Assembly (NCBI GenBank): GCA_029240655.1
Contig: JARDZW010000007.1
Coordinates: 1-37,133 of the forward strand
Reading direction: 5' to 3'
Origin: Chloroflexota bacterium
GTDB lineage: Bacteria; Chloroflexota; Limnocylindria; Limnocylindrales; CSP1-4
Length of the DNA: 37,133 bases
Under the pieces are notes generated by a model. It worked only from the letters and a program-made list of their open reading frames with translations. It did not search any database and had not been told where the DNA came from. Shown piece after piece: positions 21,458-24,909 of the stretch. Made by a program: the position numbers and the translations under genes. Within the stretch, counting starts at the first letter, position 1. Each line of letters starts with the position of its first letter.

Positions 21458-21736
21458 TCAGGCTCGATCCAGCTCGCGGTCGATCGCACGCAGGATGAAC
21501 CGCGCCGCCTCGGCGCTCTTGCCACCCAGCTTCTCGCCCTCGTCCTGCTCCAGGGCACGCATCAGGTCCCCCAGGAACAGATCCAGGGACGGCGTCCGTA
21601 CCAGCGACCCGTCGGCGAAGGCCGCCTCCAGCCGGGCAACGGCGGCCCGGGCGTTATCGACGCTGTGGCCCTTGGCGACGATCAGCTCGCGGACGTCGGA
21701 ACGGGCGGCGTCGGCGGCTGCACCGGAGCTCGTCAC
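21458..21736 (-). CDS. Small helical hypothetical protein coupled to a GNAT gene
   Basis: A 92-residue protein, strongly helical and Ala/Arg/Glu/Asp rich (SVDNARAAVARLEAAF, SLDLFLGDLMRALEQDEGEKLGG, AARFILRAIDRELDR). It has no cysteines, signal peptide or membrane helix. The GTG at 21736 overlaps the stop of the upstream GNAT gene (GTGA), so the two are translationally coupled. The function is unknown; a partner or substrate of the acetyltransferase is possible. Confidence 0.6.
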   Translation of the reverse strand: MTSSGAAADAARSDVRELIVAKGHSVDNARAAVARLEAAFADGSLVRTPSLDLFLGDLMRALEQDEGEKLGGKSAEAARFILRAIDRELDRA

Positions 21737-22452
21737 CGCAGCTTGCGCATCGTGCGCCGCAGCAGCCGGGTCGTCGTCGAGCCCGCGGCACGGCCGTCGT
21801 CATCGCTTCGCGCGCCCTCGGCTTCGCGTCCCTGGGATCCCAGCGCCTCGGCGTGCAGCAGAGCACGCTCGCCCTCGTCCTCCGCATCATCGAGGCGCAT
21901 CCGGCGCCAGTCGGACTCGAGGACGCTCATCGCGATCTCGTCCCACCAGCGCCCGTCCCGGAAGATCGACTCGCGCGACCGCCCTTCCACGACGAACCCG
22001 CACCGCTTGTAGGTCCGGATCGCGCGCTCGTTGAACTCGAACACGAACAGCGCGATGCGATGGAGCCCGAGTGTCCCGAAGGCGTGGTCGAGCATGAGCC
22101 GGGTCGCCTCGGTCCCGTAGCCCTGCCCCCAGGCGTCCTTCTCACCGATCGTGATGTGGTACAGCGCCGAGCCGTTCTCGCCGTCGAGCTGACTGAAGGC
22201 GCAGGTCCCGACCAGGCGCTCCCCGGCGCGCTCGTGGATGGCCATGGCCATCGCGTCCGGGCCAACGACCCGAGCGGCGAAGAAGCGCTCGATCTCATCG
22301 GCGCGCATCGGCGCTTCCTGGTAGCGGGCCAGGCGGGCGATCTCCGTGTCCGCGTACCACTTGCGGAACCACGCCACGTTCTCCGGGACGTGTCGGCGCA
22401 GGACGATCCGGGAACCGGTCAGCACCTCTGGGAACCACGTTCGCGGCGGCAT
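21733..22452 (-). CDS. GNAT family N-acetyltransferase (RimJ/RimL-like)
   Basis: A 239-residue protein. Residues ~5-175 form a GNAT domain of the RimJ/RimL type: LTGSRIVLRRHVPENV, then YHITIGEKDAWGQGYGTEATRLML with the acetyl-CoA pyrophosphate loop GQGYGT, then LHRIALFVFEFNERAIRTYKRCGF and VEGRSRESIFRDGRWWD. It should acetylate an amine, perhaps a protein N-terminus or a small molecule. A ~60-residue basic and acidic tail follows that has no match. The start is the ATG at 22452: the open frame extends 22 codons more, but the palindromic GTATAC promoter lies in that part. It is divergent from the DNA ligase gene, with 26 bp between start codons. Confidence 0.88.
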   Translation of the reverse strand: MPPRTWFPEVLTGSRIVLRRHVPENVAWFRKWYADTEIARLARYQEAPMRADEIERFFAARVVGPDAMAMAIHERAGERLVGTCAFSQLDGENGSALYHITIGEKDAWGQGYGTEATRLMLDHAFGTLGLHRIALFVFEFNERAIRTYKRCGFVVEGRSRESIFRDGRWWDEIAMSVLESDWRRMRLDDAEDEGERALLHAEALGSQGREAEGARSDDDGRAAGSTTTRLLRRTMRKLR

Positions 22453-22462
22453 CGCCGGAACC

Positions 22463-22468
22463 GTATAC
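22463..22468. promoter_or_regulatory. Palindromic GTATAC shared -10 of two divergent genes
   Basis: GTATAC is centred in the 26-bp gap between the GNAT ATG (22452, minus) and the DNA ligase ATG (22479, plus), exactly 10 nt from each. Read as TATACC (plus) and TATACG (minus) it can serve as -10 in both directions, and both transcripts would begin at or next to the start codons. See the findings. Confidence 0.5.
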
Positions 22469-22478
22469 CATCGCCGCC

Positions 22479-24206
22479 ATGCGCCGCTGGAGCGACCTGG
22501 CCGAGCGCGTGGCGGCAACCACCCGGACCTCCGAGAAGACCGCCCTCCTGGCCGACTACCTGCGCAGCCTCACCGCCGACGAGCTCCCCATCGCGGCCGT
22601 CTTCCTCACGGGCCGGCCGTTCCCGGAGGCGGACCAGCGGTCAGCTGGTCTCGGCTGGTCGGCGATCATGACCGCGATCGGGAACGTGGCGTCGATCACG
22701 CGGGGAGACCTGGGCGCGGCGTACGACCGGCACTCCGACCTCAGCAAGGCCGTCGAGGATGTCCTCGTTGGGGCCGGCCACGCACCGCCTCCCGAAGTCT
22801 CACCGACCCTCCCCGAGGTGGCGGCCACGTTCGCGGCGGTCGAGTCCGCCTCCGGCCCGGCCGCCAAGGCACGGCTGCTCACGGAGCTCTTGGCGCGCTG
22901 CGATCCCGCCACGGCCAAGGGCATCGTGAAGGTGCTCGGTCGGGAGCTCCGGATCGGCCTTCGCGAGGGCCTCGTCGAAGCGGCGATCGCGAAAGCGTTC
23001 GACCGTCCGCTCGATGCCGTGAAATGGGCTGGCATGCTGACCGGCGACGTCGGCCGGCTCGCCGAGCTGGCCCGCGACGACCAGCTCGATGACGCCGAGC
23101 TCGCGCTCTTCCATCCGCTCAAGTTCATGCTCGCCTCCCCGGCAGAGGACGCGGCCGAGATCCTCAGGAGGCTCGGTCCGGAAGTCTGGGTCGAGGACAA
23201 GTACGACGGCATCCGGGCGCAGCTCCACAAGCGCGGGACGGACGTGCGCCTCTACTCGCGCGACCTCAACGACGTCAGCGCGCAGTTCCCCGAGGTCGTT
23301 GACGCCGCCCGTCCGCTCGGGTGGACCGGGGTCATCGATGGCGAGATCCTCGCCTGGAAGGACGGCCTCGTGCTGCCGTTCCAGAGCCTGCAGGCGCGGC
23401 TGGGGCGTAAGTCACCGTCGGACGCGATCCGGGCAGAGGTGCCGGTCATCTTCGTTGCGTTCGACCTGCTCGCTCTCGGCCCCGGCGACGACCCCGACGG
23501 CGAGGCCACGGTCGAGCCGCTGTTGCGCGAGCCGTTGCGCGAACGCCGCCGACGCCTCGACGCGATCGAGCTGCCGCTGGCCGGTGCCGGCGGACGGTTC
23601 ATCCGCTCGCATCTCGGCGTCGCGATCGATGTCGACGCGCTTGAGGTCGCCTTCGCCGATTCGCGGGCGCGACGCAACGAAGGGCTCATGGTCAAGGACC
23701 CGACGAGCATCTACTCGCCCGGCCGTCGCGGCCTCGGCTGGTTGAAGATGAAAAAAGCGCTCGCGACCATCGACTGCGTGGTCGTCGGCGTCGAAGTCGG
23801 GCACGGCAAGCGGCACGGTGTCCTCAGCGACTACACGTTCGCGGTCCGGGACACGAAGACCGACAAGCTCGTCAACATCGGCAAGGCCTACAGCGGCCTG
23901 ACCGACGCCGAGATCGCCGAGATGACGAAGTGGTTCGAGGCGCACACGATCGCCACGTATGGGCGCTACCGGCAGGTCGAACCGACGGTGGTCGTGGAGA
24001 TCGCGTTCGACGTGATCGTCCGGAGCAAGCGCCACGGGTCGGGCTTCAGCCTGCGCTTCCCGCGTATCGCCGCCCTGCGCCCGGACAAATCGGTCGATGA
24101 GATCGACACCGTCGACACGGTCACCGCCCTGTACGAGGGCCTCCAGCATGGCTCGGAGCTGCTGGTGACCGCGGGCGCCCGGACGGTGCCGCCAGCGGCC
24201 GGCTGA
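22479..24206 (+). CDS. ATP-dependent DNA ligase (archaeal/eukaryal type I)
   Basis: A 575-residue ligase that seals nicks through an enzyme-AMP intermediate. It has the N-terminal alpha-helical DNA-binding domain (~1-215), the adenylation domain (~216-425) and an OB-fold domain (~426-560). The adenylated residue is Lys241 in VEDKYDGIRAQLH (motif I); VIDGEILAW (III), EGLMVKDPTS (IV) and GWLKMKK (V) follow. This is the large LigI-like form, not the short LigD-type bacterial ligases, and would act in repair next to the usual NAD+-dependent LigA. No Ku or LigD partner is nearby. ATG 22479 is set by the divergent promoter and by the family N-terminus. Confidence 0.93.
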   Translation: MRRWSDLAERVAATTRTSEKTALLADYLRSLTADELPIAAVFLTGRPFPEADQRSAGLGWSAIMTAIGNVASITRGDLGAAYDRHSDLSKAVEDVLVGAGHAPPPEVSPTLPEVAATFAAVESASGPAAKARLLTELLARCDPATAKGIVKVLGRELRIGLREGLVEAAIAKAFDRPLDAVKWAGMLTGDVGRLAELARDDQLDDAELALFHPLKFMLASPAEDAAEILRRLGPEVWVEDKYDGIRAQLHKRGTDVRLYSRDLNDVSAQFPEVVDAARPLGWTGVIDGEILAWKDGLVLPFQSLQARLGRKSPSDAIRAEVPVIFVAFDLLALGPGDDPDGEATVEPLLREPLRERRRRLDAIELPLAGAGGRFIRSHLGVAIDVDALEVAFADSRARRNEGLMVKDPTSIYSPGRRGLGWLKMKKALATIDCVVVGVEVGHGKRHGVLSDYTFAVRDTKTDKLVNIGKAYSGLTDAEIAEMTKWFEAHTIATYGRYRQVEPTVVVEIAFDVIVRSKRHGSGFSLRFPRIAALRPDKSVDEIDTVDTVTALYEGLQHGSELLVTAGARTVPPAAG

Positions 24207-24231: not shown

Positions 24232-24237
24232 TATCCT
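24232..24237 (+). promoter_or_regulatory. -10 box, leaderless start of 24244
   Basis: TATCCT ends 6 nt before the ATG at 24244, in the gap after the DNA ligase stop (24206). It fits the leaderless arrangement seen repeatedly in the window. Confidence 0.5.
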
Positions 24238-24243
24238 TCGGCG

Positions 24244-24909
24244 ATGTTCGACAGCGTCGCGGGCGATCCGCCCGTTACCACTCTGACCCTGTACACGGAC
24301 GCGTTCATCGCCCGGGGCACCATCCTGACCCGCCAGCGGCGCGTCAGCGACATCCTGAATCTCGCCGAGGATCGGTTCATCGTGCTCAGCGACGTGACGA
24401 CGGACGAGTTCGGCACGCGTGGCGAGACGCTCAGGGCCGATTTCGCCCAGATCAACCTGAATGCGGTCCTCTTCGCCGTCGCCGACACGAGGTTGGACAC
24501 GCCACCGGAGCTTCGAACGCCCAAGGTCGCCGAGCAGGCGTTGATCTCGGTGCCGCCATTCAAGGTGACCGGGAGCATCTACCTGATGCCGGGACACAAC
24601 CTGCGCGAGGCACTGGCGGAGCTGACCGGCAGATTCGTGCCCGTGACCACGGCGACGTACTGGTCCGATGTCCTCGGCGAGGCTCGCCAGACCGCCGAGC
24701 TCGTGGCCGTGAACCACGAGCGTGCCCAGATCCTGGCGCCGCTCGTGATCGTCGACCCGTGGGCCGATCTCGGAGGCCCTTCCCCGGGCACCACGACTCC
24801 GGGCGCCACGGCCGCGCCTGACACGCTCGTCAAGTCCGCCGGAGATCCTGCCTGGCCCGAGACCGATGTGCCGCAGACGCCGCGGCCACCCACGGAGCCG
24901 ATCGGCTAG
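24244..24909 (+). CDS. Conserved hypothetical protein with Pro/Thr-rich tail
   Basis: A 221-residue protein in two parts. Residues ~12-175 form a soluble alpha/beta region made of two short similar strand-rich units: LTLYTDAFIARGTILTRQRRVSDILN near the start and VTGSIYLMPGHNLREALAELT near the middle (quoted in parts). Both describe a strand, a 'role change' and a helix, suggesting an internal duplication. Residues ~180-221 are low-complexity Pro/Thr/Ala and probably disordered. No signal peptide or membrane helix is seen. I do not recognise a function. The start ATG 24244 follows a TATCCT box by 6 nt. Confidence 0.7.
   Translation: MFDSVAGDPPVTTLTLYTDAFIARGTILTRQRRVSDILNLAEDRFIVLSDVTTDEFGTRGETLRADFAQINLNAVLFAVADTRLDTPPELRTPKVAEQALISVPPFKVTGSIYLMPGHNLREALAELTGRFVPVTTATYWSDVLGEARQTAELVAVNHERAQILAPLVIVDPWADLGGPSPGTTTPGATAAPDTLVKSAGDPAWPETDVPQTPRPPTEPIG

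Follow-up and report, generated by a model that had tools for sequence, protein, structure and literature searches.

The divergent genes for a GNAT-family acetyltransferase and an ATP-dependent DNA ligase in a Chloroflexota bacterium very probably share a 12-bp bidirectional core promoter of the form ANNNTA/TANNNT. As read from the sequence, this promoter would comprise two abutting TANNNT −10 boxes without −35 elements, and both of its mRNAs would be leaderless or nearly so. Retention of the layout in 20 genera marks it, on this comparative evidence, as a genuine, compact promoter for both directions and not a palindrome that arose by chance.

Results

The divergent gap contains two abutting predicted −10 boxes

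The DNA analysed, hereafter the window, is a stretch of 37,133 nt from the Chloroflexota bacterium GCA_029240655.1 (contig JARDZW010000007.1, positions 1 to 37,133, forward strand). The features considered here are:

21733–22452, minus strand: GNAT-family acetyltransferase (Acetyltransf_3, 239 aa; Pfam PF13302, E 6.8e-22), start backed by orthologues
22453–22478, no strand: divergent intergenic gap, 26 bp
22460–22465, minus strand: predicted GNAT −10 element TACGGT (read 22465 to 22460), 7 nt before the ATG, identified by the TANNNT peak and by conservation
22463–22468, no strand: GTATAC palindrome, the junction of both −10 elements and no element of its own
22466–22471, plus strand: predicted ligase −10 element TACCAT, 7 nt before the ATG, with no −35 in place
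22479–24206, plus strand: ATP-dependent DNA ligase (575 aa; Pfam PF04675/PF01068/PF04679, DNA_ligase_A_N/M/C)

The minus-strand ATG of the GNAT gene (22452–22450) and the plus-strand ATG of the ligase gene (22479–22481) flank the sequence cgccggaacc GTATAC catcgccgcc. Both annotated starts are supported by orthologues: several relatives have an in-frame stop 3–9 nt upstream of the GNAT ATG, and homology among the ligase orthologues begins at MRRWS. The initial annotation had described a 26-bp gap with GTATAC at its centre, 10 nt from either ATG. This geometry proved exact on re-reading the sequence, and the Pfam matches agree with the partners that were named, a GNAT enzyme and a DNA ligase.

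Read with the TANNNT consensus, the gap is CAT-N7-ACCGTA/TACCAT-N7-ATG, where the slash marks the junction of the boxes. The spacing of 7 nt between each box and its ATG coincides with the peak of the TANNNT distance distribution of the genome, and the first T of each box lies 13 nt upstream of its ATG, in agreement with the ∼12 bp that marks leaderless genes. As in a bidirectional promoter, −10 elements are present on both strands inside one short stretch. By inspection, no Shine-Dalgarno sequence was visible in 22453–22478. A scan of the gap for sigma-70 promoters of the standard two-hexamer type returned no match, as expected of boxes that lack a −35. Transcription in either direction probably begins at the start codon itself.

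Two features of the flanking genes were also observed. A 92-aa ORF without a Pfam match lies at 21458–21736 of the window, and its GTG at 21736 overlaps the GNAT stop by 4 bases (GTGA), which suggests that the ORF and the GNAT gene form one operon. The next gene 3′ of the ligase gene encodes a DUF6812 protein (ATG at 24244) and has a leaderless-type TATCCT (24232–24237) 6 nt before its ATG.

GTATAC is rare, with 2 sites in the 37-kb window and 15 in 849 kb of the genome. Under a dinucleotide model of 26-bp gaps, the post hoc probability was 1.8e-5 for GTATAC exactly mid-gap and 0.0018 for any TA-rich palindromic hexamer at that position. For TANNNT on both strands 6–9 nt from both gap ends, the dinucleotide model gave a P of 6.5e-4, likewise post hoc. 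ANNNTATANNNT occurs once in the window and on average 0.16 times in shuffled windows, 14 of 100 of which carried at least one. This last figure, the empty sigma-70 scan and the fact that consensus matches alone are no evidence of function would accord with a chance palindrome in a tight gap without a promoter role, the genes being read from distant promoters. We consider this explanation extremely improbable: the arrangement is conserved in 20 genera, one of its halves is lost only where a gene start has moved, and the genome carries a general leaderless signal, as described below.

TANNNT boxes precede many start codons in the genome

The genome assembly comprises 2.75 Mb in 231 contigs and is 71.5% complete; 849 kb of it, including the window, were analysed (GC 0.70). 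A codon-usage caller predicted 794 genes in this sequence. Because the called starts were approximate, motif profiles were compiled over all in-frame candidate starts. TANNNT preceded an in-frame ATG by 6, 7, 8, 9 and 10 nt in 23, 25, 20, 12 and 7 cases, respectively, versus ∼1–3 at other distances, which represents an enrichment of about tenfold or more at 6–8 nt. The corresponding counts before GTG were 20 and 12 at 6 and 7 nt. Permuted motifs and out-of-frame starts gave no comparable peak in the 849 kb.

A TANNNT box was present 6–9 nt upstream of 115 of the 746 genes with enough upstream DNA, versus 17 genes when shifted distances were counted instead. Such a box preceded 58 of 192 genes with an upstream neighbour in the opposite orientation versus 6 of 270 operon-internal genes (co-directional neighbour within 30 bp). 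In an aligned leaderless set (n = 116), neither a −35 nor an extended −10 was apparent. The commonest hexamer in this set was TACCAT (13/116), the sequence of the predicted ligase box; TACGGT, that of the predicted GNAT box, occurred five times. Since TANNNT peaks sharply 6–9 nt upstream of starts, these data indicate that leaderless transcription is common in this genome, with approximately one gene in seven predicted to be leaderless by the TANNNT count.

The box pair is conserved across the family

We compared the locus across 107 genomes of the family, which consists of uncultured Limnocylindria-type Chloroflexota. A ligase match was found in 105 of the 107, not all of them full-length orthologues, and 88 orthologous loci were read including the upstream region. 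A GNAT homologue was divergent to the ligase gene in all 88 loci. In 83 of the 88, the aligned ligase start was preceded by TACCAT at 6–9 nt, and an abutting ANNNTA was present in 76 of these 83, from 19 genera. Another three loci, of genus g6, carry this box pair 7 nt ahead of an in-frame GTG that itself precedes the aligned ligase ATG, bringing the abutting pair to 79 of 88 loci and 20 genera.

In these g6 loci (L146, L147 and L167), the ligase probably starts at this GTG, which precedes the aligned ATG by 15 or 42 nt. Start and promoter have probably stayed together in these loci, with an N-terminus of different length.

To avoid circularity, a motif-free test was performed on 50 loci chosen by coding alignment alone, in each of which no more than 30 bp separate the GNAT Met from the ligase start. 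A-19, T-15, A-14, T-13, A-12 and T-8 were each retained in 48 of the 50 loci, and the other two were shifted by 1 nt. The mean majority at third codon positions of the ligase gene in the same loci was 0.64. Column conservation at the gap ends is partly due to the start codons themselves.

Within the GNAT box, the three central bases differ among the 50 loci (C40/A6/G4, G34/C16 and G40/C9/T1), and its forms include TACGGT, TACCGT, TAGGGT, TAGCGT, TACGCT, TACGTT, TACCTT, TAGCAT and TAGGAT. As the middle of the box drifts while its T, A and T stay, the pattern is that expected of a −10 element rather than a palindromic operator. In the ligase box, the central CCA hardly varies, TACCAT being the favourite leaderless −10 of the genome.

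This invariant CCA, the 8-bp palindrome GGTATACC in many relatives and the strong conservation of TATACCATC could nevertheless be taken to reflect the operator of a dimeric regulator that controls both genes. That reading is highly improbable: the window has CGTATACC, most of genus g5 has CCTATACC or GCTATACC, and g11 has GCGTATACC, such that symmetry beyond TATA is lost. Unlike this wider symmetry, the fixed bases (T, A and T) of both TANNNT boxes are kept; moreover, eight bp is short for an operator. Nor is an inverted repeat conserved beyond the −10 bases, the GNAT-side bases that flank TATA varying between genera. The data leave room for an additional factor acting besides polymerase.

Natural variants assign each box to one direction

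Seven of the TACCAT loci lack the left box. In six of them, from g16, g22 and g23 (four loci), the distance to the GNAT start is greater and the ligase box reads CTACCAT, without the first TA. Most of the displaced-GNAT loci of these three genera have their own TANNNT before the new GNAT start. The seventh (G104, genus g25) differs in having a gap that is longer and rearranged. Loss of a single half of the pair where one gene start has moved thus assigns each half to one direction, without recourse to experiment.

These variants bear on the proposal in the initial annotation that one palindromic −10, either GTATAC or the overlapping TATACC/TATACG, serves both strands. GTATAC is centred exactly in the gap, the leading TA could alternatively belong to a ligase box TATACC, and overlapping −10 elements are the common form in E. 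coli and Salmonella (PMC10268837). However, the TANNNT motif enriched ahead of start codons in this genome ends in a T that neither TATACC nor TATACG has, and TACCAT alone persists, without a preceding TA, in the g16, g22 and g23 loci. Most of g5 has CTATAC rather than GTATAC at the centre; palindromy beyond TATA is therefore not kept. A shared −10 is accordingly a very unlikely explanation of the gap, and the variants instead point to two separate, adjacent boxes.

Genus g13 (19 loci) likewise has a more distant GNAT start, yet TACCTT still abuts the ligase box. A GTG is present 6 nt downstream of TACCTT in 17 of the 19 loci, and a TTG in one. The short leader ORF that begins there encodes a similar peptide in most of the 19 loci (VKPARR..TDPLWRTGG; VKPARR...DPLWRTGG-like). 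In some loci, the stop of this ORF and the GNAT ATG overlap as ATGA; in others, a GGAGG-like Shine-Dalgarno sequence precedes the GNAT start and doubles as the WRTGG codons. The g13 loci are L119–L121, L123–L126, L129–L131, L133, L137, L139, L157–L160 and L162–L163, with the region on the minus strand from the ligase ATG to the GNAT start. The short ORF may be a leader peptide or a translational-coupling device, and the minus promoter seems to persist in g13 where its first product has changed. Retention of the left box despite a moved GNAT start, in g13 as well as in g19, requires an extra assumption, namely a leadered GNAT mRNA or a leader ORF.

The arrangement is specific to this locus

The exact layout, with abutting boxes 7 nt from each of two ATGs, was found in 18 of the 107 genomes and always at this locus, versus one place in the 107 genomes for a composition-matched control pattern. 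A layout in which the boxes share the TA gave 11 scattered matches in the same genomes versus 4 for its built-in control. Within the 849 kb, 4 of 96 divergent pairs had both leaderless boxes and a gap of ≤34 bp. Boxes were present on both sides in 15 of the 96 pairs versus ∼11 expected if the sides were independent (32/96 and 33/96), so there is no clear coupling of boxes. The initial annotation had proposed testing for a genome-wide enrichment of such gaps. As the exact layout occurs nowhere else in the 107 genomes, the arrangement is a locus-level feature of one family and not a genome-wide class.

Three more tight divergent pairs of the genome that contains the window have TANNNT 6–9 nt from both starts: L044:7036-7058, L062:2241-2274 and L073:5692-5722. 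By eye, they were named folK/S51-peptidase-like, psuG-like/S9-peptidase-like and plastocyanin-like/deoC-like, respectively. The folK pair resembles the ligase/GNAT gap in having a divergent gap of 23 bp with TANNNT 6–7 nt from both starts but differs in that its boxes share the TA (ATAGTAAGGT). It was considered as a second conserved example and rejected, since its layout was not kept in the 24 relatives read.

Outside the family, in families f4 and f5 of the same class, no GNAT homologue was found beside the ligase gene in the loci read. In f5, the start codon of the ligase homologue (L284–L296) is often preceded, at a distance of a few nt, by a TAGACT box. Given these boxes without a GNAT neighbour, leaderless expression of the ligase may be older than its pairing with GNAT.

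Discussion

The sequence itself shows both boxes and their spacing, the leaderless signal across the genome and the conservation of the pair; from these we infer the true start sites, activity in both directions and exclusivity of the polymerases. The initial annotation's view of the gap as a divergent promoter with two predicted leaderless or near-leaderless genes is borne out, at this level, by the TANNNT peak of the genome and by the conserved placement of the boxes. In one orientation, polymerase would melt TACCAT and start at or within ∼2 nt of the ligase ATG (22479). In the opposite orientation, it would melt TACGGT and start at or near the GNAT ATG (22452). The leaders would be 0–3 nt, a range within which lengths are indistinguishable here. 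Occupancy of the two boxes would be exclusive, one polymerase at a time, because 3 bp separate the −11A positions (22467 and 22464) and a polymerase in either orientation would span both boxes. The footprint of RNA polymerase is far larger than the 26-bp gap.

Bidirectional promoters with symmetric −10 elements have been described by Warman, Wade, Grainger and colleagues (PMC10268837, PMC12825309). In these, the starts are 7–25 bp apart, most commonly 18 bp and also 10 and 23, and key −10 positions overlap reciprocally (PMC10268837). The predicted ligase/GNAT promoter is similar in having a short stretch with a TA-rich core that could be engaged in either orientation, in the exclusive occupancy expected of it, and in being tied to mRNA production. 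It differs in that its boxes abut without sharing a base (offset 0), its predicted starts are ∼25–27 bp apart (A-to-A distance of the ATGs, 27) and both products are predicted to be leaderless. Starts 1–2 nt inside the gap would give a distance of ≤25, with the boxes still non-overlapping. Because of the abutting boxes and the distance between predicted starts, we class the arrangement as a variant of the bidirectional promoter.

The boxes also resemble those of leaderless TANNNT genes in other high-GC bacteria (PMC3160421; Deinococcus-Thermus, PMC12340547), as does the signal in this genome: the hexamer and its distance to the start codon are the same, there is no Shine-Dalgarno sequence, and no −35 is needed. 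From its available text, the report on leaderless TANNNT genes of M. tuberculosis (PMC3898074) describes the same features. The published descriptions concern single-direction genes, unlike the pair described here. PMC12340547 uses neither the word divergent nor the word bidirectional, and the word divergent is absent from PMC3160421. Leaderless genes averaged 4.7% in the 4 of 12 Chloroflexi genomes that had any (PMC3160421), and none of the papers searched mentions Limnocylindria together with the word leaderless. We did not find an earlier description of a bidirectional promoter with abutting −10s and two leaderless mRNAs.

At bidirectional promoters of E. coli, the two directions competed negligibly at basal activity, competition appearing only once one side was substantially activated (PMC12825309). 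At the ligase/GNAT gap, mutual exclusion of polymerases is plausible from the geometry. A more speculative idea, which we hold to be rather doubtful, is that the abutting geometry itself has been selected: competition at the 12-bp core would then act as a regulator-free seesaw that couples the ligase and the acetyltransferase and has been kept across most of the family.

With two predicted −10 boxes, two start codons and no further element within 32 bp, the gap would constitute a near-minimal divergent promoter. It is well suited to the question of whether bidirectional promoters use competition between polymerases for regulation or whether such competition is a by-product of compactness. More broadly, the prevalence of TANNNT boxes before start codons indicates that leaderless transcription is a substantial mode of expression in an uncultured Chloroflexota lineage.
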